This document shows positions 5,084-40,676 of a stretch of DNA of 64,000 nucleotides, piece by piece; positions within the stretch are counted from its first letter, which is position 1; every line of letters starts with the position of its first letter. The DNA lies in contig NZ_CP012332.1 in assembly GCF_001263175.1 (NCBI RefSeq), positions 3,411,501 through 3,475,500 on the forward strand, given 5' to 3'. The DNA is from Vulgatibacter incomptus. Lineage in GTDB: Bacteria > Myxococcota > Myxococcia > Myxococcales > Vulgatibacteraceae. Below the pieces are notes generated by a model. That model saw only the letters and a program-made list of their open reading frames with translations, made no database searches and was not told the DNA's origin. A program made the translations under genes and the position numbers.

Positions 5084-5671
5084 TCATTCTTCGCCCCGTG
5101 GGGGCATCGGTCCCCAGAGCGCCTCGAGGTCGAGCTCCAGCTCTTCGAACGGCTCGGCCCGCGCCCGCTCGCTCTCCTCGAAACCCCCAACGATCAGAAA
5201 CCGACTGTGCTCGCTACGAAGGACCTGGAGCGAGCGCTCGAGCGGATCGAGGAGCCAGACATACCGGACGCCGGCCCGGGCATAGAGGCGAATCTTGCGG
5301 ATCCGGTCGAGGCGCGCGGTCGAGGGCGAGAGCACCTCGCAGACCCAGTCGGGCGGAAGCTCGAAGAAGGGCGCGTCCGGAGGTACGGGCAGGCTCTCCT
5401 TCCTCCATCCGGCGAGGTCCGGGACCAACACGTCCGAGCCAAGGTGCAGCTCCGGCTCGTCGACGATCCACCAGCCGCCCGGGCCGTTCCGACCGATCTG
5501 GAAGGGGCCATAGAGCTCCCCGCCCAGCGCGGAGCTCACCATGGCGTGGCGATTACCCGGGCGAGGCGATGCCCAAAGCTCGCCCTCCACGATCTCGCCG
5601 ATGAGGTGCTCGGGGAGCGCCTCGAGCTGCTCGTAGGTCGCTGGGCGTTTTCCGATCTTCTTCGCGGTCAT
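5084..5671 (-). CDS. Uma2-family (DUF820) restriction-endonuclease-fold protein, copy 2
   Basis: 195 aa with the Uma2 fold: an N-terminal [21 protein letters not shown] block, then a PD-(D/E)xK-like core with E in [17 protein letters not shown] and the [16 protein letters not shown] segment, and [16 protein letters not shown]. Such genes occur in many copies in cyanobacteria, Actinobacteria and myxobacteria. They are predicted nucleases of unknown role, often near mobile DNA. It is a close paralogue of the neighbour at 5782-6342, including its ~38 bp leader. The start at 5671 (MTAKK) aligns with the paralogue start and has a GGGGGA box upstream. Confidence 0.85.
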
Positions 5672-5709
5672 ACGAATCCCCCGAGTCTTGCATGCCCCCT
5701 CCGACACTA
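5672..5709 (-). repeat. Duplicated leader of Uma2 copy 2
   Basis: The ~38 bp before the start codon nearly match the leader of Uma2 copy 1 at 6343-6380, sharing the CCCCCGAGTCTTGCA segment and ending in CCGACACTAC on the plus strand. The two leaders probably arose with the gene duplication and share expression signals. Confidence 0.75.
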
Positions 5710-5735
5710 CCGCCCGACTGGCATCCCGCACGCGC
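5707..5735 (-). repeat. Degenerate third copy of the rlmN 3' end
   Basis: Between the two Uma2 genes is a short remnant that, read on the minus strand, gives A-C-G-M followed after four codons by TAG, as at the end of rlmN. It shares the 16-mer GCATCCCGCACGCGCC with the true rlmN tail (13971-14024). The remainder is diverged or deleted. Confidence 0.55.
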
Positions 5736-5756
5736 CGACGGATCGGCGAGGCGTAC

Positions 5757-5781
5757 CGTCGGGCAACCAAAATCCGACGGG
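5757..5781 (-). other. Hairpin directly after Uma2 copy 1
   Basis: CCGTCGG and CCGACGG arms with an 11-base loop begin immediately after the stop codon of Uma2 copy 1. There is no T-run, so it may only be an mRNA-stabilising or weak termination structure. Confidence 0.4.
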
Positions 5782-6342
5782 CTACGCCCAGAGCGCCTGG
5801 AGGTCGAGCTCCACCTCGTCGAACGGCTCCGCCCGCACCCGTGCGGCCTCCTCGTGGCCCTCGACGATCAGGAATCGGCCGTGGTCGTTTCGCAGCACCT
5901 CGAGCGAGCGCTCGAGGGGATCGAGGAGCCAGACGTGCCCGACACCGGCCCGGGCATAGAGTCGCATCTTGCGGAACCGGTCGAGGCGCGCGGTCGACGG
6001 CGAGAGCACCTCGCAGACCCAGTCGGGCGCCACCTCGAAGAAAGGGAGGCGGACGCTGGGAAGCCGCTCCTGCCGCCAGGCCGCCAGGTCCGGCACGAGA
6101 ACGTCCGGGCCCAAGTGGAGCTCCGGCTCGAGGAGGATCCACCAGCCTCCGGGGCCATTACGCCCGCGGTGGAAAGGGCCATTGAGCTCGTAGCCGAGCT
6201 GCAAGGCGGCAAACGAGTGCCGGCCCGAGGGCCGTGGGCTCGCGATCAGCTCGCCCTCCACGATCTCGCCGACGAAATGCTCCGGCAGCGCCTCGAGCTG
6301 CTCGTAGGTCGCCGGGCGCTTCCCGGATTTCTTTGCGGACAT
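5782..6342 (-). CDS. Uma2-family (DUF820) restriction-endonuclease-fold protein, copy 1
   Basis: 186 aa, clearly homologous over its whole length to the gene at 5084-5671 (shared [46 protein letters not shown] blocks). It holds the same predicted PD-(D/E)xK-type core (VPDLAAW and EVLSPST). The start at 6342 is preferred over 6348 because it aligns with the start of copy 2 and keeps the same distance to a GGGGGA box. The function of Uma2 proteins is not established. It sits between two rlmN-tail repeats (5707-5735 and 6386-6439). Confidence 0.85.
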   Translation of the reverse strand: MSAKKSGKRPATYEQLEALPEHFVGEIVEGELIASPRPSGRHSFAALQLGYELNGPFHRGRNGPGGWWILLEPELHLGPDVLVPDLAAWRQERLPSVRLPFFEVAPDWVCEVLSPSTARLDRFRKMRLYARAGVGHVWLLDPLERSLEVLRNDHGRFLIVEGHEEAARVRAEPFDEVELDLQALWA

Positions 6343-6380
6343 GCTCATCCCCCGAGTCTTGCACGCCCCTCCGACACTAC
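6343..6380 (-). repeat. Duplicated leader of Uma2 copy 1
   Basis: Counterpart of the leader at 5672-5709, differing at only a few positions. It links the gene to the rlmN-tail repeat that starts at 6386. Confidence 0.75.
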
Positions 6381-6385
6381 CCCGC

Positions 6386-6439
6386 CTACCCGCCCCCGGC
6401 GAGCATCCCGCTCGCGCCCTCGATCGACTTGCCGCTCGA
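6386..6439 (-). repeat. Second copy of the rlmN 3' end (att-like direct repeat)
   Basis: This 54 bp segment matches 13971-14024, the 3' end of rlmN, at about 50 of 54 positions, in the same orientation, with a 23-bp identical core. Read on the minus strand it encodes GKSIEGA-S-GMLAGGG followed by TAG, identical to the RlmN C-terminus except that the conserved catalytic Cys codon is now Ser. It is therefore a detached rlmN tail. Together with 13971-14024 it bounds the 7.5 kb lower-GC islet. Confidence 0.85.
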
Positions 6440-6493
6440 ACCGACTCCCGCCGGTTGGACCGGTCCGGCTGTACCCGCCCCCATGCCCCACTA

Positions 6494-7945
6494 TCAGTTG
6501 AATGGAACGCCGATGGAATCGAACTTCGACAGGTCGTATCGATACACGGAGTTGGCGTCTTTGCCCCAGTTGGCTCCCCAGCCGGAATAGGTGACGTAGA
6601 GGTATTCGCTCGTGAGCGTGTGGTCGATGGGGAGCTGCTCGCCTACAGAGCCGAACCAACGTTTCGACCAATCCGATGTACGAATGAGGATGAGACTTGT
6701 GTCGCGAGGACCACTCTCATTCCCGTTGAAGACTTCGACAGAAATGAAATCATCAGCGCTTTTTATTTTTTGCGGAAGGCCGACCAGGCCAGCCATCACA
6801 GGGCCAAGCGTGACTTTCGGCTCTTTTTCCAAAACTCGCGGAGCGAACCAAACAGCGATTGCCCCAGGAAGCCCATCAACTCCCCGTGCTGCACCGACAA
6901 TCCTGGCACGATCCAATCCAACTGCCCACGTCCGCCATGGGAGATCGGAGATGACGGTTCGCAAACCGCGACCGTCAGGAGCCCATGCCCGAATCCGAGA
7001 ACCGTTCTCGAAGGATTTCCTTTCAGCCCAAATGGCCAGATCTGCATCCTCCGCCCCAGACTCGACCATATACCCATCCTCCACGTCATCCAGGAGCGAA
7101 ACATCGCTCGACCCAGGAACCAGCGACGCGCTGATGGTTTGAGGGCAAAGAAAGAACGTTCGACCACCATTTCGGAACTCGAGCGTTGAACAATATTTAT
7201 CCCTGGCGTCGGCGAGCCGTGGTGGCTTCTGCCAAAGCCAGCGGCCGTATGAAATCTCCCAGGTCCCCTTTACGATCTTCAGCTCCCGCTCGTCGGTCTC
7301 GGTCGACATCATCACATGGAAAGCGTTGTCGAAGCTGTAAACACGATACGAACATGGTTGCATCAGTGGCTCGCGGATCCGCTGCAACGCTGCAACCGTC
7401 TTGCCGGTTCCAAGATCGATGATTCTCCTCAGACCTCGCGCGCTCTCACCCAAGGTCTTCGAATCGTAAAGAAAAGAATAAGACGTCGTTAGGACAGCCC
7501 GCTCTTCGCCCTCTGCAAACATGGTACTCAATCGAGGATTCAAACCCGAGCCGAACCCCTGAGACGTATCGGCTCTTTCGCAGCCTGAACCACAGTTCGC
7601 CCACTGAAGCGCCTGGACCGGAAGCTCGGCGGGATCGGCTTCGAGAATCCTACAACCGCTGGTATCGAATGGGCTCTCGAGACCTGACCTCCAGATCGAG
7701 TCGTCCCCGAGCCACAGCGGAAAGGGATCGGGGGCGCCGGCCGCTCCACCGGTTCCAGACGCCACTTCGCCCCCTGCGCCGCCGATCGAAGGATGTCCTC
7801 CGCCTCCGCCCTTACCGCCGCTCCCCGAAGGGCCGCTCGGAAGCGGCCCCCGGATGCCATCAGTGCAGGCAGCCATGCATAGGAATGAGGCCGCCGCACC
7901 GGTGATCACCGCAACAGCCAGCGAACCGATTATAGAGCGGTGCAT
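6494..7945 (-). CDS. Gly-rich secreted lipoprotein of the rlmN islet, unknown function
   Basis: 483 aa. A signal peptide ending CMAACTDG (lipobox-like) is followed by a Gly/Ser-rich linker to about residue 75, then about 400 residues with irregular W/G-rich strands (IWRSG, DLAIWAERKSF, IAVWFAP, YVTYSGWGANWG) suggesting a beta-propeller. I recognise no catalytic motif. The coding sequence is less GC-rich than the core genes around it, suggesting transfer. Its ATG lies inside the last codons of the interrupted upstream gene (stop at 7930), a stop/start overlap that implies translational coupling of the two islet genes. Confidence 0.75.
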   Translation of the reverse strand: MHRSIIGSLAVAVITGAAASFLCMAACTDGIRGPLPSGPSGSGGKGGGGGHPSIGGAGGEVASGTGGAAGAPDPFPLWLGDDSIWRSGLESPFDTSGCRILEADPAELPVQALQWANCGSGCERADTSQGFGSGLNPRLSTMFAEGEERAVLTTSYSFLYDSKTLGESARGLRRIIDLGTGKTVAALQRIREPLMQPCSYRVYSFDNAFHVMMSTETDERELKIVKGTWEISYGRWLWQKPPRLADARDKYCSTLEFRNGGRTFFLCPQTISASLVPGSSDVSLLDDVEDGYMVESGAEDADLAIWAERKSFENGSRIRAWAPDGRGLRTVISDLPWRTWAVGLDRARIVGAARGVDGLPGAIAVWFAPRVLEKEPKVTLGPVMAGLVGLPQKIKSADDFISVEVFNGNESGPRDTSLILIRTSDWSKRWFGSVGEQLPIDHTLTSEYLYVTYSGWGANWGKDANSVYRYDLSKFDSIGVPFN

Positions 7946-8193
7946 GGCTCCCCCTTAACGAACTCACGCGGCTCAAGGCTATCCATGCGGAGCTCCCCAT
8001 TGGCATCCCGGACCGGGAGCACTGGACCGAGCGTGCCCGTGACCGGAGCCTCGAGAGGCTCGCCGTCCCGACCGCGTTTGCCCAAAAAAGCCGGCAGGCC
8101 GTTTGGCTTTAGCTGGATCAGCCAAGATGTGTAGCTCGCAGTGTGGGCAGCAGTGAGAACGATCTCTCCCTCCAGGGTTACCGAGAGCGGTGA
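7930..8193 (-). pseudogene. 3' fragment of the IS-interrupted pseudoprotease lipoprotein gene
   Basis: Left of the IS3 element, an open frame of 87 codons on the minus strand begins directly at the IS boundary without a start codon. It reads SPLSVTLEGEIVLTAAHTAS and later LRMDSLEPREFVKGEPCTAL before TAA. It is in the same frame as the fragment at 9808-10932 on the other side of the element. This makes it the probable original C-terminus of that gene. The absence of a visible target duplication leaves some doubt that the two ends were contiguous. Confidence 0.6.
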
Positions 8194-8194
8194 G

Positions 8195-8215
8195 TGTCAA
8201 CATAGTTGTCGCCTC
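8195..8215. repeat. Left terminal inverted repeat of the IS3 element
   Basis: Matches the reverse complement of 9784-9804 at all but two or three positions, sharing TAGTTGTCGCCTC. Confidence 0.8.
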
Positions 8216-8220
8216 CCCGG

Positions 8221-9225
8221 TCATGCGGCCGCGGTCCTCTCTGGCGTGAGCCTTACGTGCTGAATGCGAGACCAGTTTCTCGTAGAACCGCTCCAGCGTT
8301 CGGGCCATCGCTCGCGCGCAGCCGCATAGACGCCAGCACGCTTCTCGAGAATCGCGAGGTCCTGTCCGGCATGGCGCTGCGCGGGAGTCACAAACCGGAT
8401 TCCACTGTGGAGGTGCGTCGCGTTGTACCAAGCGACGAAACTCTCGACCCAGGCACGTGCCACGGCGAGCGAGGCGAACGGCCTCGACGGGAAGTCAGGC
8501 CGATACTTCATCGTGCGGAAGTGCGCCTCCGCGAACGCGTTGTCGTTGCTCACCCGGGGGCGGCTGAACGACGGGACGACGCCGAGCACCTGAAGCGTGG
8601 CCTGCAAGGTCGAGCCTTTCATCGCCGCGCCGTTGTCGGCGTGGAACACCATGCCGTTCGGATTGACGTCCAAACGCCGGCAGGCCTCGACGAAGAGCTC
8701 CTTCGCAAGCTCCTCGGACTCGACGTCGTGCACGGCCCAGCCAACTACCTTCCGACTCCAGAGATCGAGGATCGTGTAGAGGCGAAAGAACATGCCGCGA
8801 ATCGGTCCCCGCAGATACGTGATGTCCCAAACCCAGACCTGGTTCGGCCCGGTGGCGACATGCTCAGGCCGCTTGCGACGCATCGGAGGCCGCGACGCCT
8901 GCCGGTGCTTCAGAAGCTTTTCCCTGCGGAGCAAGCGGTAGATCGTCGCCTCGGAAGCGACGTAGATGCCTTCATCCGCAAGGAGCGGAACGATCTGCGC
9001 GGGCGACAAATCCCGGAACTTGGGCGAGGTTACGAGCGCGAGAATCCTCTGCTGCTCGGCCTCGCTGAGCTTGTTTCGCGGCGCCGTCAGCGGCCCACAT
9101 CGGAGATCGTCCTCGGCTCCTGCGCGCCATCGCTGCACCGACCGAGCGCTCAAGCCAATCTCCTCGCAGGCTCTCTCGAATCTTGCGCCGCTGACGACAG
9201 CCTCGTCGAGGAGCTCGAGGATCAT
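8221..9225 (-). CDS. IS3-family transposase OrfB (DDE integrase core)
   Basis: 334 aa. It has an N-terminal helix-turn-helix-like region (ACEEIGLSARSVQRW), an HTH_21-type segment (YRLLRREKLL), and the rve/DDE core: D in VWVWDITYLRG, D in FHADNGAAMKG, and E in FAEAHFRTMKYRPDFP, followed by W and H residues of the C-terminal part. This is the catalytic half of the transposase. Its ATG overlaps the orfA stop as ATGA (9222-9225), but the frame is open back through the A9 run. An OrfAB fusion by -1 frameshifting is therefore likely to be the active product. It appears intact. Confidence 0.92.
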   Translation of the reverse strand: MILELLDEAVVSGARFERACEEIGLSARSVQRWRAGAEDDLRCGPLTAPRNKLSEAEQQRILALVTSPKFRDLSPAQIVPLLADEGIYVASEATIYRLLRREKLLKHRQASRPPMRRKRPEHVATGPNQVWVWDITYLRGPIRGMFFRLYTILDLWSRKVVGWAVHDVESEELAKELFVEACRRLDVNPNGMVFHADNGAAMKGSTLQATLQVLGVVPSFSRPRVSNDNAFAEAHFRTMKYRPDFPSRPFASLAVARAWVESFVAWYNATHLHSGIRFVTPAQRHAGQDLAILEKRAGVYAAARERWPERWSGSTRNWSRIQHVRLTPERTAAA

Positions 9226-9740
9226 CTTCCGCTCTTCCCGTCTGTGTCGTCGTCCTCGTCCCCCCAGATCTCCTGCACTTTTTTTTTGAGGACGAGGAGC
9301 GCGGCGGTCTCCGCGAGCGCCTTCTCCTTACGCCTGAGCTCGCGCTCGAGCTCGCGAACCCGCTTCGCATCAGGCCCAACAGAACGACGCGCTGCTGCGC
9401 TCCCAAGGCTAGCGACGGCAGTTGCGCGCCACTCATCGAGCTGGGCTTTGTGCAGTCCCTTCTGGCGGAGGTACGAGCCGAGCTCGTCATCACTCAAGCT
9501 CGCTGTCTCGATCAGGACCTGCAGCTTTTCCTCGCTGGTCCACTGGCGGGTGCTCTTGTCGTCGCGGTCGTCCATCTTGACGCCGAGCCTACCCGCATCC
9601 AGCAGCCAACGGGAGAGCGTCGCCTGGGCAATCCCGGACTGCCTTGCAAGCGCAGTCGCCGACATCGCGTGCGGCCCCGTAAGCTTCTCCACCATCTTCG
9701 CCTTGAACCCCTCGGAGTACGGAGTCCGACCCATCTCCAA
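9222..9740 (-). CDS. IS3-family transposase OrfA
   Basis: 172 aa. The N-terminal part is a Tn_8-type helix-turn-helix (YSEGFKAKMVEKL, ATALARQSGIAQATLSRWL) that binds the IS ends. The C-terminal part is a charged coiled coil (RVRELERELRRKEKALAETAALL), the usual oligomerisation leucine zipper. The coiled coil is followed by the slippery A9 at 9279-9287. Normal termination gives OrfA alone, while slipping back one base joins it to OrfB. Confidence 0.88.
   Translation of the reverse strand: MEMGRTPYSEGFKAKMVEKLTGPHAMSATALARQSGIAQATLSRWLLDAGRLGVKMDDRDDKSTRQWTSEEKLQVLIETASLSDDELGSYLRQKGLHKAQLDEWRATAVASLGSAAARRSVGPDAKRVRELERELRRKEKALAETAALLVLKKKVQEIWGDEDDDTDGKSGR
9279..9287 (-). other. A9 slippery run for programmed -1 frameshifting
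   Basis: Nine consecutive A on the coding strand near the 3' end of orfA. The -1 frame after the run is open (KSAGDLGGRGRRHRREERK) straight into orfB. IS3-family elements make OrfAB by this mechanism. Confidence 0.75.
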
Positions 9741-9783
9741 CCTGCTCTTCGCCCCCTACTTGATCGACCTACGCTGTCACGAC

Positions 9784-9804
9784 GAGGCGACAACTACGCT
9801 GACA
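9784..9804. repeat. Right terminal inverted repeat of the IS3 element
   Basis: Reverse-complement partner of 8195-8215. Confidence 0.8.
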
Positions 9805-9807
9805 CAG

Positions 9808-10932
9808 GGGGGTATCCAGGACGTAAAGCCTGGATAGGCGGGGATCATATGCCGCCCCAAGGATCGTTCCCGAGGGATTGACGCCCGTGAATTGGGTCGC
9901 GGTTGTCACGCCCGAATCGATCTCAGTCTTGAGAACTCCGCCGCTGTCGACCTTCGAGCTCCCCCATACCTGATAAATTGCCCCCTCACTCGCCGTGTAA
10001 AGCGCACGCCCGTTCGGCGGCAAAGATACCTTGGCAGTGGACATCGCTTCGGCCTGGGCTACCGCTTCGGCAGCCGAAAGGGCAGCGGCCGTATCACTAG
10101 TGCCGTGACGCATCGCACTAGCCATGCCACCAACCACCAAGCCCTTTCCCTTAATCGCTACGACCGGAATCACCGCGCCCTGAGACGTCACCATCACGGC
10201 GCGCGCCTCCAGCCCCGCGGTGGCGAGGGCATCCGCGCTCTCCACAGCGGTGATCCAGGTAATCTCGGACCCGTTGCTCAGGATCTTCTGAAGATCGGAA
10301 TCGATTGAAGACTTCAGCTCCTGCCAGACGCCCCCGCCTCGCGAGATTACGAACTTATCCAGATCGTTCCATCCCAGCACGGCCGGATTGATGATCGAAT
10401 TTCGTCCTTCATTCGAAACGATCTCATACAAGTCCCTCGGATTCACGAAGGGCATACACCCAGGGACCAGGCATCGCCTCATCGTTACGCCTTGGAGTGG
10501 ATCAATCGCCCCCTCGATCATCACGAAAGACACCGAGGATCGAAGAGCGCCATCCCACTCGTTGTCCCTGCGGCTACGGTATTCGTCGGTCCGGACCAAC
10601 GTGGAGCCGAGGAATCCATACACACGCTGACCGGCGGCAAAAACCTTCCCGCTATCGATATCCTTTTCCCAATCCCATCGAAGGTCTTCCTGATTCCCTT
10701 CGACGCCGCCCGCGACGCCCTCGCGGACCCGCACATCCCCTCCTCCTCCATCTCCTCGATTCGTACCCCAGGTGCCGTCCGGCATCTGCCTGGATACATC
10801 AATCTTGACCCATGGCGTTTTGGAGTCATGCACGAGCTCCGCCCCGCAGCGGTCTAGGAGGCAAACGTCGTCGAAGATTGGCTTGCCATCGTCGTCATAG
10901 CAATCGCAAAACCGGTAGGCCATTTTTTCCAT
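9808..10932 (-). pseudogene. Middle fragment of the IS-interrupted pseudoprotease lipoprotein gene
   Basis: About 375 codons lie between the IS30 and IS3 elements, starting EKMAYRFCDCYDDDGKPIFDDV and ending YDPRLSRLYVLDTP at the IS3 end. Removing the IS30 element and one copy of its CAT duplication joins this fragment in frame to the 5' fragment ending at 12169. Visible features are a Cys-rich start (CDCYDDD, CLLDRC), an acidic/Gly stretch, and a Gly-rich segment toward the end with VYGFLG and IYQVWGSS strands. No known domain is recognised. GC content is below that of the core chromosome. Confidence 0.75.
10930..10932. repeat. CAT target-site duplication, left of IS30
   Basis: CAT next to the left IS30 end; the same triplet follows the right end at 12169-12171. 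A short duplication fits the IS30 family. Confidence 0.7.
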
Positions 10933-10957
10933 GGCGGTCTCAATCGGTGAACGCACC
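10933..10957. repeat. Left terminal inverted repeat of the IS30 element
   Basis: GGCGGTCTCAATCGGTGAAC and following bases match the reverse complement of 12144-12168 at most positions, including the first eleven. Confidence 0.8.
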
Positions 10958-11001
10958 ACGGGGTGCGTCTGTGGCACCCTCCGCCTGAGAGGTGCCGAGG
11001 A

Positions 11002-12161
11002 ATGTGGGCTCGTAGCAAGGCAAGTCGGCTGACCATCGACGATCACCTGGAGCTCCATCGCCGGTTCCGAAATGGCGATTCGCTAGCTGTCGCCGCGGCG
11101 GCGGTTGGGTGCTCGGCGAAATCGGTCCATCGCCTCCTCCGTAAGACAGGCGGCGTGGCCCCTCGGGCCCCCACGCGGTCGGAGGCAAGGCTCTCCGTGG
11201 TCGAACGCGAGGAGGTCTCACGCGGCATCCAAGCCGGCGAGTCGTTCCGAAAGATCGCCACGAAGATCGGGCGCGCGCCGTCGACGGTATCGCGCGAGGT
11301 CCGGGCGGCTGGGGGGCGTGAGGCGTACCGGGCGCACCTCGCTGAGAAAGGGGCGCGCCAGCGAGCCCGTCGGCCCAAGCCCTTCAAGCTCGTGGAGAAC
11401 GCCGGGCTTCGCCAGGCGGTAGAGGAAGGCCTGCGCCAGCGGTGGTCGCCGCAGCAAATTGCTGCGAGGCTGAAGGTCGACCACCCCAAGGCCCCGAGCT
11501 TCGCGTGTCACACGAGACCATCTACAGCTCCCTTTTCGTGCAGGCCCGCGGGGCTCTCCGGAAGGAACTCGCCACCTGCCTTCGGACGGGACGAACCCGG
11601 CGGCACCCGGGCAAGCGCACCGATCTCAGGGGCAAGATCAGCGACATGGTGATGATCAGCGAACGGCCGGCGGAAGCCGAAGACCGCGCGGTTCCTGGGC
11701 ATTGGGAAGGCGATCTGATCATAGGGAAGGACAGCAAATCGGCGATCGGTACGCTGGTCGAGCGCAAGAGCCGTTTCGTGGTGCTGTTCCCCTTGCCTAA
11801 CGGGAGGACCGCGGAGGATGTCCGCAAGGCGCTCGCCGCCGAAGTTCGGCGCCTCCCAGAGTGCCTCCGGCGCTCGATCACGTGGGACCAGGGGAAGGAG
11901 ATGGCTCAGCACACTCGCTTCTCCGTTGAGACGAACGTCTCCGTCTACTTCTGCGACCCGCACAGCCCCTGGCAGCGAGGCAGCAACGAAAACACCAACG
12001 GGCTACTCCGCCAGTACTTCCCCAAGGGCAAGGACCTCAGTGCGTACACCCGACGAGAACTCAATACGGTGGCAGCTCAACTAAACGGACGCCCAAGACA
12101 GACGCTCGACTGGAGGACGCCGGGTGAGGTATTCAGCACATTCGTTGCGTCGACCACTTGA
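11002..12161 (+). pseudogene. IS30-family transposase, one-base frameshift
   Basis: Residues 1-165 (from ATG 11002) hold the helix-turn-helix regions: AVAAAAVGCSAKSVHRLL, then SFRKIATKIGRAPSTVSREV and WSPQQIAARLKVDHP. The frame then breaks near the CCCC at 11492-11495 and continues one frame over with VSHETIYSSLF, the DDE core (GHWEGDLIIG, CDPHSPWQRGSNENTNGLLR) and the conserved RQYFPKG stretch. Restoring a single C gives 386 aa, the family length, and a continuous family-like sequence at the junction. It may be a dead transposase or a sequencing indel; compare other genes in this window with the same kind of defect. Confidence 0.85.
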
Positions 12162-12168
12162 GACCGCC
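12144..12168. repeat. Right terminal inverted repeat of the IS30 element
   Basis: Reverse-complement partner of 10933-10957, overlapping the last codons of the transposase. Confidence 0.8.
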
Positions 12169-12171
12169 CAT
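12169..12171. repeat. CAT target-site duplication, right of IS30
   Basis: Partner of 10930-10932. Confidence 0.7.
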
Positions 12172-13398
12172 CCGGTCGGGGACAAGCGCCCCATTTCCAA
12201 TCCATGAACGAGCCGTGAAAGAGAGTGGGTCGGATGTACCCCGAGTCCGAGGCACGGACTCGCCGAAAACAACCAACGGAACTGGATCGCAGCGATCGGC
12301 GAGGTACTTCATCCTTGTAGAAGTTCGGCCAAGGGCCTCTTCCGCGTCCAGGTTCGAATTGACGGTGCCGAGATGGCGCTGGTCCGATTCCGACGGACAG
12401 GGCTCGCCGTCCGTAAAATCGCCGAGGAAGGGACGAATCGCCTCCGCGTGATCGAAGGAAGGAACGTCTCCGGCCCGACCGAGATAAGTGAACCCAAAGG
12501 ATTCGCCGGTTCCATCCAAATCGAGGACACGTCCAACATAGGTTCCGACTACGACGTAGCGCCCAGAGCGTGAGTCACGGAGAAAGAGCGGCCCGCCACG
12601 ATCCAATCCGTCGATGCCAGGATCCGGCGATTCTGCGAAGATTGCTCCGGAATCTACGCCAGGGTTAGCAGGGACTCGAGACTTCAGCCATGGATGTCCG
12701 CTACTTCCCTCAAGCCGAACTGGGCTTCCAAGCGCGCCCATCCGACGATGTCCCCATACGGTGTGGCCATCACACCGCAGGCAATCAGGGCCGAAACCCG
12801 CAACAAACGCGCCGTCAGCAACCAGCGTTCCGTCCGCAAGAGCGGACTCGATATCACCGAGAAACACAGGCGCAACCTGCTCGATTCGTGTAGGATCGAC
12901 AGCTTCCTGTAGCTTGATAACCGCAAGGTCTTGCGACGAGGCGGCGGCCCCTCCGCTCCCAGGGGCGATCCAAACGTCGGACACAAACAGAAGATCCGGC
13001 GTCGGGTCGCCGTCCTTCGGCAAAGCGACCACAATCGCCGAAGGTGGGAAGATGGAGGGGCCTTTTGGATCCGAGATGCAAAGTGCCGATGTAAGCACCC
13101 GATCTCGGGCGACGAGGACGCCCGTACAGCGCATAGACACGGCGAACATACCACTGACGTACTGGTCGTACCCAATCTCGACAACGGTACCAGCGATCCC
13201 ATCGATCGTTTCCAGCTGTTGCGCCGTCGAACCATCGTATGTTTCCACACCCGGGCCGGTGAGCGCGTTGCCGACCGTTCCGATTGAGTCTGTCGCTGGC
13301 GTAGTACTTGCCCCACACGCGCCGGCAATGATCGCAAAGATCGTCGCGATCCCAGCTATCGCCGTGCTAGCGCAACGATTCATATGTCGACACTCCAT
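12169..13398 (-). pseudogene. 5' fragment of trypsin-like pseudoprotease lipoprotein gene, cut by IS30
   Basis: 410 codons starting MECRHMNRC at 13398, with GGGAGG six bases upstream. A signal segment ends IIAGACGAS, a probable lipobox. Residues about 55-300 follow the S1 (trypsin) layout: CTGVLVARDRVLTSALC, QDLAVIKL, VAGFGPDC----GHRRMG and GLDRGGPLFLRD. The catalytic His position of TAAHC is Leu here (TSALC) and the catalytic Ser of GDSGGP is Arg (LDRGGP). Only the Asp remains, so a peptidase function is unlikely. The original gene ran into 9808-10932 and probably 7930-8193, about 870 aa in total. Read-through into the IS adds ten foreign codons before a stop at 12133. Confidence 0.8.
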
Positions 13399-13970
13399 AT
13401 GAGACCTCCCTTTATGTTGGTACTTCTACTTCGACCACCACGGGAAACTACATGGAACCCTCGTGGCATGCTGACGTCAGCGCCACGATGATGTCAAGCG
13501 AAACGCTCTCCGCTTTTTTGTTTGAGTATCAACGGATCAAGAATTTTTCGGCGGGCACCTCGGAAGCGAAACGGAATCTACCGAGCCGTTTCGCACGCCG
13601 ACCCGGCATGTGATTTCCGACGACTCCTGCGGGGATACGCGTGTCGACTCCGCAGGTCTTTTTATCGGAGCCACCGTCGTCGACTGGCACCGGTGCAGGC
13701 TAAGTGGGCGTTTCGGGTCAGCGCGCACCTGCCAGGCGGGGATTTTCGTTCGACAAGGGTGTCTCAAGAGGTCAAGACACGGCGAACGGCAAAGTGAGCA
13801 CGCGCTCCGCCTAGTCGTAGCCTCGTTCGATCAGGAACCGATCGCGGACATTCCACAGCACATCGAGCGAACGCAGAGGGGCACCAGGAGCCAGAACCGA
13901 TGTCAGCGCGGAAACAGTCGCATCCTACGAAGTCAGTAGAGGACGAGAGTGCCTTGTGGAACTGGCGGTC
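13399..13970. other. Non-coding stretch upstream of the islet operon
   Basis: 572 bp between the pseudoprotease start and the end of rlmN. It is less GC-rich than the core, with T/A-rich patches around 13515-13550. I find no convincing gene; a 91-codon open frame on the plus strand (13522-13797) has no ribosome binding site or family resemblance. It should contain the promoter of the leftward islet operon. Confidence 0.6.
13626..13663 (+). terminator. Possible terminator-like hairpin with T-run
   Basis: CCTGCGG and CCGCAGG arms with a 17-base loop are followed by GTCTTTTT on the plus strand. No plus-strand gene ends here, so it may be a relic or a structure of the islet boundary. Confidence 0.3.
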
Positions 13971-14024
13971 CTACCCGCCCCCCGCAAGCATCCCGCACGC
14001 GCCCTCGATCGACTTGCCGCCCGA
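13971..14024 (-). repeat. rlmN 3' end, parent copy of the att-like repeat
   Basis: Intact coding tail of rlmN; direct repeat partner of 6386-6439 with about 50 of 54 positions equal. It keeps rlmN complete, as expected when an element integrates at the 3' end of a gene. Confidence 0.85.
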
Positions 14025-15026
14025 GTAGCGGCGCACCACCGGCGCGCCGAGGATCTGCAGGTGATCGCGGAAGCGCTCGAGCTCCTCCTTGTCCGGCGGG
14101 AGGTAGCGGCCCGAAGCGTCGTTCACCTCGATGAGATCGATCTTCACCGGCGTGTCGCCCACCAGCTCCTTGAGGGCCACCGCGTCCTCGTAGCCGGTGT
14201 TGAAGCCGCGGATCACCACGTAGGCGAGCATGGCTCGCGTACGACGGGCGATTGCGTGGCGCCGCACCGCCGCCATCAGGTCCGGGAGCGGCCAGCGCTT
14301 CTCGATCGGCATCACGTCGACGCGCTTCTCGGGGATCGCCGAGGTGAGGCTCACCGCGAGGCGATACGGATGCCCCTCGTCTGTGAAGCGCTCGATCATC
14401 GGGATCCAGCCCGCGGTGGAGATCGTGATCGAGCGTCCCTCGATCGCGCCGCCTGCTGGCGCCGAGAGGATCTGCGCCGCCGCGATCACGTTGCGGTAGT
14501 TGAGGAAGGGCTCGCCCATCCCCATGAAGACCACGCCCTTCACCGGGCGATCCGCCTCTTCACGGATGGTGAAGATCTGCTCCACAATCTCCCACGGCCG
14601 CAGGTTGCGCTTGAAGCCCATGCGCCCCGTCGCGCAGAAGTCGCACGCCAGCGCGCAGCCCACCTGGGAGCTCACGCAGACCACGTAGTGGGTGTCGAAG
14701 ATCGGGATCCGCACCGCCTCGACGCGCTGCCCGTCCTCGAGGCCGAAGAGGTACTTCGTGAAGCCGTCGGCGGGATCGGTGCGGCGCGCGATCACCTCGA
14801 GGCGCGGCGTCGCGCACGCGGCCTCCACCGCGTCGAAGACCGTGCGGCGCACCTGGGCGGTCTGGCGGATCTCGCCGATCAGACGCCGGCGCTTCACCGC
14901 GGCGGACCAGACCTTGCGGGCCTCGGAAGGCGTCGCGCCGAGGGCGCCGAGAGACTCGATGGCGCCTGCCTCGGTGAGATCCTGGAGCACGATCCGCGAC
15001 GGCGGCGCGAGAGGGAGGGCGTTCAA
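13971..15026 (-). CDS. rlmN: 23S rRNA/tRNA adenine C2-methyltransferase, radical SAM
   Basis: 351 aa. RlmN methylates A2503 of 23S rRNA and A37 of some tRNAs using a radical SAM mechanism. The iron-sulfur motif CxxxCxxC is present as CALACDFC, with GMGEPFLNY, STAGWIP and LAVSLTSA as further SAM-binding blocks. The second catalytic Cys is in the C-terminal SIEGACGMLAGGG. It starts four bases after the anti-sigma gene ends, so it is the last gene of the mpg-sigma-anti-sigma-rlmN operon. Its last 54 bp are repeated at 6386-6439 and, degenerately, at 5707-5735. Confidence 0.95.
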   Translation of the reverse strand: MNALPLAPPSRIVLQDLTEAGAIESLGALGATPSEARKVWSAAVKRRRLIGEIRQTAQVRRTVFDAVEAACATPRLEVIARRTDPADGFTKYLFGLEDGQRVEAVRIPIFDTHYVVCVSSQVGCALACDFCATGRMGFKRNLRPWEIVEQIFTIREEADRPVKGVVFMGMGEPFLNYRNVIAAAQILSAPAGGAIEGRSITISTAGWIPMIERFTDEGHPYRLAVSLTSAIPEKRVDVMPIEKRWPLPDLMAAVRRHAIARRTRAMLAYVVIRGFNTGYEDAVALKELVGDTPVKIDLIEVNDASGRYLPPDKEELERFRDHLQILGAPVVRRYSGGKSIEGACGMLAGGG

Positions 15027-36940: not shown

Positions 36941-37045
36941 CTACACCAAAGCCGGAAAGCGCGGAACCGATCCTTCGGGAACGGGCCCCGGCGCCTTTCT
37001 CGACCGCATGGCGGTGCCCATCTTCATGAGGAAGGAGGCCCAACC

Positions 37046-37498
37046 ATGGCAGACGAGACGCCCGACGTGAGCGCGACGCCCGTGCCCACGCGGCACGAGC
37101 CGGCAGACGACTACCGCGCCTTCGTCGACGAGCTCCGCTGGACCCATCCGATCGAAGATCCCGAAGACGCCGCGTACGCCGCCGCCGTGGTCCTCTGCCA
37201 GCTCGAGCGGCGGCTCACCGGCGAGCGGCGCGATGAGCTGGCCTTCCGCCTCCCGGAGGAGTTTCAAATCCTGCTGGCGGCCTGCCCCCGGGTCGACGGC
37301 TCGGGTGCCCAGCGCACGAACGCCCGCACCTTCCTCGCCGACGTAGCCGACCTCCTGGGCACCGAGCCGACCGCCACCTTCCAGATCGTCTCGGCCGTCT
37401 TCACCGCGCTGCGGGATCGGCTTCCCGACGAGGACGTGCACTGGGTCGCCAGCCAGCTCCCGCCCGACCTCGCCGACATCTGGCGCCGGCCGGTGTAG
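37046..37498 (+). CDS. DUF2267-family protein
   Basis: 150 aa with an AAGGAGG box upstream of ATG 37046. Helical DUF2267 pattern: YRAFVDELRWTHPIEDPEDAAYAAAVVLCQLERRLTGERRDELAFRLPEEFQILL followed by FLADVADLLG and FTALRDRLPDEDVHWVASQLPPDLADIW. Family function is unknown; members are soluble and sometimes stress-associated. A hairpin at 37518-37545 may end the transcript. Confidence 0.82.
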   Translation: MADETPDVSATPVPTRHEPADDYRAFVDELRWTHPIEDPEDAAYAAAVVLCQLERRLTGERRDELAFRLPEEFQILLAACPRVDGSGAQRTNARTFLADVADLLGTEPTATFQIVSAVFTALRDRLPDEDVHWVASQLPPDLADIWRRPV

Positions 37499-37517
37499 GC
37501 CGCATTCGCACGAAGCG

Positions 37518-37545
37518 CGAAAGGGACGCCTGAGCGTCCCCTTCG
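37518..37545. terminator. Strong hairpin between convergent genes
   Basis: CGAA-GGGACGC and GCGTCCC-TTCG arms close a 4-base loop with a single mismatch. It lies between the DUF2267 gene and the convergent gene ending at 37580. No T-run, so termination is plausible but not certain. Confidence 0.5.
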
Positions 37546-37579
37546 GACCTTGCGAGGAACCAACCCGCAAAGGTGCAAG

Positions 37580-38854
37580 TTACGGCGTTACGATCCTGCC
37601 GATACTCCCGTAATACCCTCGGGTCCCCAAGTAAGCGACGTGCAGGTTGTAAGGATCGCGAATGACCTTGGACGAGGCCGGGGTCCCTGCATCCACCGGC
37701 AAGGAATCGCTCCAGTTTAGATGGCCGGTGGTATCGAACCGGTCGATCACGCCCCAACCTCCCAAAACGGTCGAGTACACGACATAGAAGGCAGTTCCGG
37801 CATCGACCAACTTGATTGGCCCAACCGCCGCGCGAGACAGATTCGACTGCCAGACCTGCCTATCGGAGAAATTTGTCACCCACGGATCCGTCGTATCCAC
37901 CAGCTCCAGGGTATGGCCGGATCCGGTTTTCCAAACGATCGAGAGTCCCTGCGACCAGCTTTCGAGCGGCCTTCCGGAGAATGCAACGATCTCCCCGGGA
38001 AAGCTCAGATCGTCCTGGTGAACCTTCTCCAACACCCCAGAGACGAGGTTGTACCGAAGAATGAACGAAGGAACGTCACTCGGATAGTTGTAGTAGAATG
38101 AACCGTCAGTCCGTCCCGCAACGAATACCGCTAGTTTCCCGTTCTCGTCGGGCGCTACAGCCACCCCCACCGGTCGATCACTTTTCAGCGAGCCGATCTG
38201 CTTAATCCATGCCCAGGTGCCCGCTGACGTAGCATTGGCGACGAAGACGTCCTCTTTACCGACGTTGGTTGGCCGGCCAACCGGAGTGTTGGTGTACCCA
38301 GTTATGATCACATTCCCGCCGGGTCCCCCGACGGTGACGATGCCGGTCGGAACAATTTTAGGAGACGGACATAAAAACCCCTCACAACCCTCGAGCGAGG
38401 CAATAAACCGGATCCAAACGAGGTCACCCTTCCAATCCAACTTCGCCAGAAAGACTTCGTCTCTGGAACCCGTACCCAAACCCGAACAGCTTGCGATAGA
38501 CATTCCGACGACGTACGTCACCTCATCGAAACCTTCCCCAACCTGCTCCATGCCAACGGGATCGAGACCGCAGTGGCTGCGGGGTACACCGGGGCTGATC
38601 GTTTTCTGATATTCCAAACTACCATCGAGCCACTTGGACACAGATGCGGAAGTAGAGACGCCTGAGCCTTGCCGCGTGAGCACCGTGGTGTACGTCGACA
38701 GTCGCCCGACGCCAGGCTTGGCCGCGAGCGCAATCAGCGTGGTAGAAGACCCAACCCCGCTTACCCTGCCGATCTCGGCGTATTTGGCCTCGGCGAATGC
38801 GCTCGTCGAGATCAGAAGGAACAGAACAGCGACTGCGCGAATCATACCTCGCAT
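37580..38854 (-). CDS. Secreted beta-propeller (SBBP-like) protein, AT-richer
   Basis: 424 aa. A classical signal peptide (MIRAVAVLFLLISTSAFAEA) is followed by a propeller-like body with repeated strands such as VFLAKLDWKGDLVWIRF, GNVIITGYTN, VFVANATSAGTWAWIKQIG and IDRFDTTGHLNWS, which resemble SBBP repeats. Function unknown. Its base composition is clearly less GC-rich than the flanking genes, suggesting acquisition. The ATG at 38854 is preceded by AAGGGGAAAT. An in-frame upstream extension to 38941 has no support. Confidence 0.78.
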   Translation of the reverse strand: MRGMIRAVAVLFLLISTSAFAEAKYAEIGRVSGVGSSTTLIALAAKPGVGRLSTYTTVLTRQGSGVSTSASVSKWLDGSLEYQKTISPGVPRSHCGLDPVGMEQVGEGFDEVTYVVGMSIASCSGLGTGSRDEVFLAKLDWKGDLVWIRFIASLEGCEGFLCPSPKIVPTGIVTVGGPGGNVIITGYTNTPVGRPTNVGKEDVFVANATSAGTWAWIKQIGSLKSDRPVGVAVAPDENGKLAVFVAGRTDGSFYYNYPSDVPSFILRYNLVSGVLEKVHQDDLSFPGEIVAFSGRPLESWSQGLSIVWKTGSGHTLELVDTTDPWVTNFSDRQVWQSNLSRAAVGPIKLVDAGTAFYVVYSTVLGGWGVIDRFDTTGHLNWSDSLPVDAGTPASSKVIRDPYNLHVAYLGTRGYYGSIGRIVTP

Positions 38855-39318
38855 GATTTCCCCTTGCGGCCACGCCGCTCTACAGCGAGTGATCTGCGTT
38901 ACTACCATAACACCAGTAGCAAGATCTCTAACGCAGGTCAAGTCGCCTACGCGCCGTCGCGCCGTCGCGCTGGCAGTCGGTCGCGCTCGGCCCTGATCGA
39001 CATGCGAGTCGTTGTCCCTGAGAACGAGCAGCGTTCTTGCTTTCTCCGGGTGTACGCGGGCAACAATCGAGCAGCTAGATCAGTCGGCGCATCACGGACC
39101 CCGATCACTACGCCAGCCTGCACCGAGCATGGAGAGCGTAGGACTCGCAGGTGGGCGCGGCTGCCAAGATCGGGCCGAGCCGACGGTTCGCCCAGCGCGG
39201 GGGAGATCGCCTCGAATCGGCGATTGGGCGGGATCCACGTTGCTGCCACGAGTAACCGCAGTTCCATGTCGCGCGGATTGGCGCCGGCGGTGACGGGTTG
39301 GCGGAGCCCCTTAACGGC

Positions 39319-39352
39319 GAAGGGGACACCGTTTCCGGCGTCCCCTTCGTTT
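39319..39352 (+). terminator. Hairpin with T-run
   Basis: GAAGGGGAC and GTCCCCTTC arms (perfect 9 bp, 12-base loop) followed by GTTTT on the plus strand. No plus-strand gene is apparent before it. Confidence 0.5.
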
Positions 39353-39379
39353 TGTACCGCTGTCTTGCCAAGAGGAGCA

Positions 39380-39411
39380 CTCGACCCGCCCTTACTCTGG
39401 GACGGGTCGAG
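39380..39411. terminator. Hairpin after the Cys-repeat lipoprotein gene
   Basis: CTCGACCCG and CGGGTCGAG arms (9 bp, 14-base loop) lie about 27 bp past the stop codon of the minus-strand gene ending at 39438. It is the probable transcript end although the T-run is weak. Confidence 0.5.
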
Positions 39412-39437
39412 ACCCTACGTTGGCATGAGCGAGCGAG

Positions 39438-40676
39438 TTACGGGTTCGCGGCGAAGCAGGCCTGCATCGTTTCCTTGACGCAAGGCGCATCGAGGATGCA
39501 CCCGATCAGATCGTCCGAGAACTCCTCGGTGCCGCAGATGTACTGGCAGTGCGTCTCGGTGAAGCCAAGCGAAAGCTGACACGAGGTGATGTGAGCGCAC
39601 ATCTGGACGCACTCGGCCGAGGGCTCGAACGGAGCCGGGGCGAGGCAACCATCAATCGCCTCGGGATCGCAGGCGACCTCACCCCAGCACGCGATCTGGG
39701 CGTCGTCGAACTGGTTGGGGTCCATGCAGATGTCGCTGCACTCATCCCGGGTCAGGCCCTCGAAGATGGTCCCGTCGGTCCCACACTCGTCGAGATTGTC
39801 GCACATGGCCTTGCACTCCGGCGACACCGTGGGCTTGAAGCACTCGTTGATCACGGGCGGGTCACCAGCGCATTCGGCATTCGCGGCGCACTCGAGCATC
39901 TCGGGGGTGTAGCCGAAGCTGCCGTTCGTGCACTTCACGCCGCAATCGACGCGGGTGTTCGAGCCCATGGTGTAGCCGCAGTCGAGGTAGGCGTGGTCGC
40001 AGAACGCCGAGCACGCCTCCGACTCGCCCGGGTGGAAGCACGTGGCGACCGCGTCGGTGCCACACGCCGCCTCGGTCAGGCAGGCGATCTTCGGGGCCTT
40101 GCCGAGCGCACCGTTCGAGCAGACCTGGCCGCACTGGACGCGAGTCAGCTCACCGAGGCCGCTGTCGCAGGTGGTGTAGAGGTGATCGCACATCGCGGTG
40201 CACGCCGCGGTCTCCTGGATCGGAGCATTGAAGCACTCGTCGAGCTGATCCGTGTCGCACCAGGGGACCATGGCCTCGACGATGCAGGAACGCAGTTTGC
40301 CGTCGAAGGGCAGGCCCCCCGACTCGCACTGCCTGGTGCACTCGTCGGCGTCCCACGTGCCCTGGTTGAACGCCAACCCGCAGTCGGCGACGGCGTCGCA
40401 CATTTCGCGGCAGGACGCCTCGGTGCCGGGGCCGCCGGTGCCGCCGGTGCCCGTGCCGCCGGTGCCGCCTGTGCCCGTGCCGCCGGTGCCGCCGGTGTCC
40501 GTGCCGCCAGAGCCGGCCTCGCTACCAGCAGTGCCGCCGGTGCCGCCGCCGGCAGTACCGCCGGTGCCGCCCGTGCCACCACCGGTGCCGCCGGTGTTAT
40601 CGGGATTGTTGCTGCCGTTGCACGCCGTGCCGACGGCGAACAACATGGCCACCAGGAAAATAGATTTGCGCAACAT
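39438..40676 (-). CDS. Secreted lipoprotein with Gly-rich linker and five Cys-rich repeats
   Basis: 412 aa. Signal peptide MLRKSIFLVAMLFAVGTAC, a linker of GGTGGTGTGG units to about residue 75-80, then five tandem ~60-residue repeats. Each repeat has the pattern C-x2-MC/FC-x(4-8)-C...C-x3-C...C...C...CF, seen at EASCREMCDAVADC, TACTAMCDHLYTTC, SEACSAFCDHAYLDC, SPECKAMCDNLDEC and SAECVQMCAHITSC. Even cysteine numbers suggest disulfide-bonded modules displayed outside the cell. No named domain is recognised. Start chosen at 40676 because it opens the signal peptide. Confidence 0.82.
   Translation of the reverse strand: MLRKSIFLVAMLFAVGTACNGSNNPDNTGGTGGGTGGTGGTAGGGTGGTAGSEAGSGGTDTGGTGGTGTGGTGGTGTGGTGGPGTEASCREMCDAVADCGLAFNQGTWDADECTRQCESGGLPFDGKLRSCIVEAMVPWCDTDQLDECFNAPIQETAACTAMCDHLYTTCDSGLGELTRVQCGQVCSNGALGKAPKIACLTEAACGTDAVATCFHPGESEACSAFCDHAYLDCGYTMGSNTRVDCGVKCTNGSFGYTPEMLECAANAECAGDPPVINECFKPTVSPECKAMCDNLDECGTDGTIFEGLTRDECSDICMDPNQFDDAQIACWGEVACDPEAIDGCLAPAPFEPSAECVQMCAHITSCQLSLGFTETHCQYICGTEEFSDDLIGCILDAPCVKETMQACFAANP

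Follow-up and report, generated by a model that had tools for sequence, protein, structure and literature searches.

Pseudoproteases with a trypsin fold are familiar from animals. The serine protease homologs of insects are described, in the literature excerpts found, as secreted trypsin folds without the catalytic triad that regulate active proteases; these are animal immune proteins, and the likeness considered here, to the bacterial protein described below, is one of fold family. The closest worked bacterial precedent among the literature found is MamO (PMC4794232), which the excerpted text of that paper presents as a trypsin-like protein of magnetotactic bacteria with Thr at the Ser position, in which catalysis was lost beside an active MamE, and with a surface di-histidine metal site for which metal binding was shown. 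So far as that excerpt goes, the gene analysed here (gene C) resembles MamO in encoding a bacterial trypsin-like protein apparently without catalysis next to an active relative, and its paralog B shares the Thr at the Ser position, but MamO is an HtrA-type magnetosome protein whereas C carries an S1-type domain in a lipoprotein, in an unrelated setting. Among the matches listed in our literature searches on this question there was no bacterial trypsin-like pseudoprotease besides MamO, and the family formed by C and its paralogs A and B was not named among the matches listed.

The window, by which we mean the whole 64,000 nucleotide stretch of DNA analysed, covers bases 3411501-3475500 of the single-contig genome (4,350,553 bases) of a soil bacterium. 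Gene C occupies positions 7930-13398 of the window on the minus strand and encodes a pseudoprotease-like lipoprotein with two insertion sequences (ISs) inside, its three open pieces being ordered as in paralogs A and B. The front piece, C1 (12169-13398, minus strand, 410 codons), holds the signal, the trypsin-fold domain and the start of a linker. It lies in a 421-codon frame (12133-13398, minus strand) of which the final 11 codons are sequence of an IS30-like element, hence only 12169-13398 is gene C's own part of that frame. An earlier, sequence-only reading had settled on the same interval, which is indeed open and whose lower coordinate is the exact edge of the IS30-like element, but it takes in just the first part of gene C, with the remainder beyond the two ISs. 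Read off the translation, a lipobox-like AGAC ending at Cys28 (13315-13326, minus strand), which we take to be the lipobox, corresponds to LAAC and LASC in the paralogs.

Searches of the bacterium's own genome found only A, B and C as members of the family. Paralog A (2544001-2547006 of the same genome) is a 1002-codon frame that shares with C the lipobox signal, the trypsin domain, a C-terminal half ending PCT.L and partner lipoprotein genes behind it, but its His-Asp-Ser triad is complete and it carries TSP3 repeats, two features that C lacks. Paralog B (locus L032, 4262868-4267131 of the same genome) shares with C its architecture, the replacement of the catalytic Ser and an interrupting IS30 element of the same kind, but keeps the His and has Thr for Ser (His-Asp-Thr); its IS30 sits near the front of the trypsin domain, behind some 80 residues, and the 927 codons after it are open. 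The TSP3 repeats (PF02412) scored above cut-off in A and B, whilst C1 and C2, the second piece, gave no Pfam match to them. A and B are 58% identical, much closer to each other than to gene C, which shares 22-25% identity with them (A vs. C1: 22% over 329 columns, E 4e-8).

Against the Pfam Trypsin family (PF00089), C1 scored 21.8 bits (curated cut-off 20.6), with the match confined to residues 88-190. A local alignment of C1 with paralog A scored 127 (shuffles 43.8, s.d. 5.7, none of 300 as high), and a profile of the three paralogs matched solved trypsin structures (best hit 2fmj_A, E 8.6e-11), whose GDSGGP falls in the same column. The catalytic columns were read in two separate alignments, one with paralogs A and B the other with 38 trypsin-like genes taken from viral contigs, and both place Leu106 (TSALC; 13081-13083, minus strand) at the catalytic His position, Asp157 (12928-12930, minus strand) at the catalytic Asp position, and Leu265-Asp266-Arg267 (LDRGGP; 12598-12606, minus strand) in place of Gly-Asp-Ser. 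Arg267 (codon 12598-12600) stands in the catalytic Ser column, and the oxyanion Gly of trypsins, two residues before it, has become Leu265. Among the 38 viral rows, His and Asp are present in all and Ser in 37 (one gap), a conservation that is partly built in because the loci were found through His- or Ser-motif patterns. C1 keeps the cysteines and other framework residues in the alignment with A and B. The two alignments agree with the sequence-only reading that two of the three catalytic residues have been lost from an otherwise conserved trypsin frame whilst the Asp motif remains, and they offer no replacements elsewhere of the kind that would have spoken against it: the His residues in the first 340 of gene C (His5, 212, 217, 235 and 317) all fall outside the His column, and in neither alignment does C1 have a Ser, Thr or Cys at the nucleophile column. 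Of the residues of an active S1 peptidase, C1 has the Asp (Asp157) and lacks the His, the Ser and the oxyanion Gly; homology to a protease family combined with the loss of its catalytic residues is what marks C as a putative pseudoprotease. At the level of sequence, the loss of catalytic residues in gene C is well supported.

Prediction of the C1 domain from its single sequence gave no usable model (mean pLDDT 31.1), and a model built with the 38 viral rows reached pTM 0.68 and mean pLDDT 63.9. A scan of viral contigs with a seven-trypsin alignment (A4) yielded 79 loci, used only to feed this second model. Foldseek matched the C1 model to 842 chains at E 0.001 or better, the best 50 of which were mostly thrombins with some Streptomyces trypsins, and VIA-align superposed it on 7arx_B, the catalytic fragment of MASP-1, over 212 residues with an rmsd of 2.9 (Z 20.9). 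The two-barrel trypsin fold predicted for C1 is partly imposed, because the alignment rows supplied were active trypsins. Among the VIA-align matches of the C1 model is a structure which, by its title, holds thrombin S195T with a covalent-type inhibitor; as such a structure exists, the Thr in paralog B may not abolish all chemistry, and paralog B is less certain as an inactive protein than C.

Between the ISs, piece C2 (9812-10932, minus strand) would hold most of the C-terminal domain and, beyond them, piece C3 (7930-8187, minus strand) its tail, which ends EPCTAL-stop at the position of the PCTGL ends of paralogs A and B. C3 aligns with the A and B tail at 33% identity over 60 columns (hhalign E 0.0017, probability 15.7), and none of 300 shuffles scored as high against either paralog, which makes its place as the C-terminal tail good by shuffles and modest by hhalign. 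C2 is the weakest link of gene C: the hhalign match to A and B spans 334 columns at E 0.0084 with a probability of only 4.8, and shuffles scored as high in 0 of 300 cases against B and 7 of 300 against A. Its assignment, less well supported than that of C3, also draws on its order, cysteines and position.

Of the two elements that separate the pieces, the IS30-like one (10933-12168, plus strand; rve and HTH_38 domains) has inverted ends GGCGGTCTCAA/TTGAGACCGCC and a possible 3-bp target repeat, CAT. It is present in six genome copies, the other five being three at 99-100% identity, one at 95% and one in two pieces (86 and 91%). The IS3-like element (8188-9811, minus strand; rve and HTH_Tnp_1), which has two transposase frames and was delimited by comparison with its five other copies, has inverted ends at 8194-8215 and 9783-9804, and all five others of its six genome copies are 99-100% identical to it. 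Because the ISs have such near-identical copies in the genome whilst gene C is far from its paralogs, the active-site substitutions are older than the insertions, and the earlier suggestion that the protein was non-enzymatic before the ISs arrived is upheld (gene C 22-25% identical to its paralogs; the IS3-like element 99-100% identical to five of five other copies and the IS30-like element to three of five). IS30-like elements in two of three paralogs, plus an IS3-like element in C, fit either dispensability or chance. No case emerged for a preference of the IS30-like element for the family: of its six copies two sit inside family members, and the other four, judged by eye, have no member adjoining.

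Homologues with the same substitutions, which the sequence-only reading had suggested looking for, did not turn up among the loci read: A has His-Asp-Ser, B has His-Asp-Thr, and of 29 relatives from the phylum (non-own loci, no more than one from each genome) 28 retain all three triad residues, the other (L091) being cut by a contig end. The 29 amount to fewer independent cases because they include near-copies (L105, L106 and L108; L102, L107 and L110; L096 and L099). Since A and these 28 relatives keep the triad, the ancestor most likely had it and the catalytic loss is most likely a derived state in gene C. A tree of 31 trypsin domains unites A, B and C in a single group (support 98/96), with branch lengths of 3.48 changes per column for C, 0.34 for A and 0.68 for B, long rows being placed unsurely according to the tool's warning.

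Outside the own genome, no further member of the family could be confirmed in the sets searched. Gene C as query matched 4 of 145 genomes of the order at E 0.01 and full-length A matched 19 of 145 at E 1e-8 (own genome included in both), and the non-own matches of A cover the TSP3 region (within residues 231-465), not the C-terminal half. That C-terminal half was found in the own genome only, one of 195 phylum genomes at E 0.001 (194 others searched). Two pattern scans of genome contigs, a set that may leave out the own genome, gave 30 matches, and 74 for trypsin domains, and three scans of viral contigs gave 51, 19 and 1 matches; no relative was confirmed in either. No Pfam family scored above cut-off for the family's C-terminal half or for the partner lipoproteins, and NCBIfam and PADLOC searches gave no match.

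The partner lipoprotein gene of C (6497-7945, minus strand) shares 16 bases with the end of gene C. Related lipoprotein genes with a Gly-rich linker lie behind each paralog, two for A, one for B and one for C, and those of A and B are 26-30% identical to C's partner. The two behind paralog A stand in tandem (locus L036, 3141-5875). C's partner has matches in 9 of the 145 genomes of the order at E 0.01, counting its own; those in other genomes are short and fall within its first 155 residues. Elsewhere in the window, two overlapping frames at 5090-6348 (minus strand) each match the Uma2 family (PF05685).

Third-position GC is 0.60 in C1, 0.68 in C2, 0.68 in C3, 0.62 in the partner gene, 0.72 in A and 0.69 in B, whereas two neighbouring genes (a radical-SAM gene at 13974-15026 and MurJ) have 0.93, so the family has a base make-up of its own; this would reflect import or weak codon selection, and gene C has not left it. 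Overall GC falls to 0.60-0.63 in 2-kb steps across window positions 6001-14000, compared with 0.66-0.72 across most of the window, which would suit an operon that was imported or is under weak selection. Another low-GC patch (0.61-0.62) lies at 37001-40000 and contains a 453-codon frame (37583-38941, minus strand) with a signal-like start and no Pfam match at E 0.01.

We consider it probable that C is a pseudoprotease lipoprotein that arose by duplication, went on being made long after its catalytic loss, probably as a binder or regulator, and was later cut by ISs. The protein would have sat at the surface or in the periplasm as a lipoprotein, and the alignments show that its trypsin-fold domain lost its catalytic residues after gene duplication; the open, codon-structured pieces suggest that the protein was still made long afterwards. 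It probably worked by binding, in concert with its partner lipoprotein, either holding a peptide or partner protein on the inactive trypsin face or competing with or activating the intact paralog A. Two recent IS insertions then split the gene into three pieces and, because they cut it, at most a truncated 421-residue protein with an inactive domain would be possible today.

The main rival is that C had already lost its use and was drifting as a duplicate by the time the ISs inserted, its active-site changes being decay rather than adaptation. The long branch of C points this way and weakens the case for the reading we favour, because relaxed selection would also give a long branch; B is likewise changed at the active site (Ser to Thr) and carries an IS30, C has no TSP3 repeats, and the sets searched gave no confirmed relative of the family, as would be the case for dispensable genes. 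Against drift, the 870 codons of the three pieces contain no stop despite 22-25% identity to the paralogs, whereas 2,000 shuffles of the same bases per piece averaged 12.6, 13.8 and 2.5 stops in C1, C2 and C3 (minima 3, 4 and 0, C3 alone being too short for the count to tell because its minimum is 0), and the cysteines and other framework residues are retained. These stop, GC and shuffle tests predate the refined IS3 edges, hence C2 and C3 there include about two IS codons at the IS side. The open frames and retained base make-up of C fit with selection continuing after the catalytic loss, as read from one sequence, and we regard a drifting duplicate as unlikely, if still worth serious consideration.

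It is improbable that the IS did no more than trim the protein, leaving a truncated 421-residue product that the cell continues to make and that keeps working as a binding domain: the frame does reach from its start across the full trypsin domain, stopping 11 codons into the IS, but the C-terminal part (C2 and C3) would be lost and a search immediately upstream turned up no promoter-like site, although such a test is weak in this kind of bacterium. Very doubtful, too, is the idea that C kept some other chemistry through its own His residues (212, 217, 235, 317) or Asp157 in another geometry. The place of His212, 217 and 235 is not fixed, because residues 176-207 of the model form a low-confidence stretch with pLDDT under 50, but the nucleophile position is without Ser, Thr or Cys and the oxyanion Gly is Leu. 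That the two active-site codons are mistakes of sequencing or assembly is scarcely credible, for although a single genome is at hand, the oxyanion Gly is also changed, divergence runs all around the site and the frame is unbroken.

Returning to the pseudoprotease lipoprotein that we favour, a wider version of it can be put forward tentatively, as a possibility we think unlikely to hold in full: a surface system of three copies, private to one myxobacterial lineage, where A would be the active protease and B and C evolved pseudoprotease partners, with a graded loss from His-Asp-Ser through His-Asp-Thr to Leu-Asp-Arg and a partner lipoprotein for each, two of the three copies now being switched off through one kind of IS30 element. 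By analogy with MamO, C may have been a binding protein in the service of A or of a common target, as perhaps was B. Gene C documents on a small scale how nature turns an enzyme into a non-enzyme, and the loss of catalysis can be read and tested here because the intact A, the Ser-changed B and the His- and Ser-less C share one genome.
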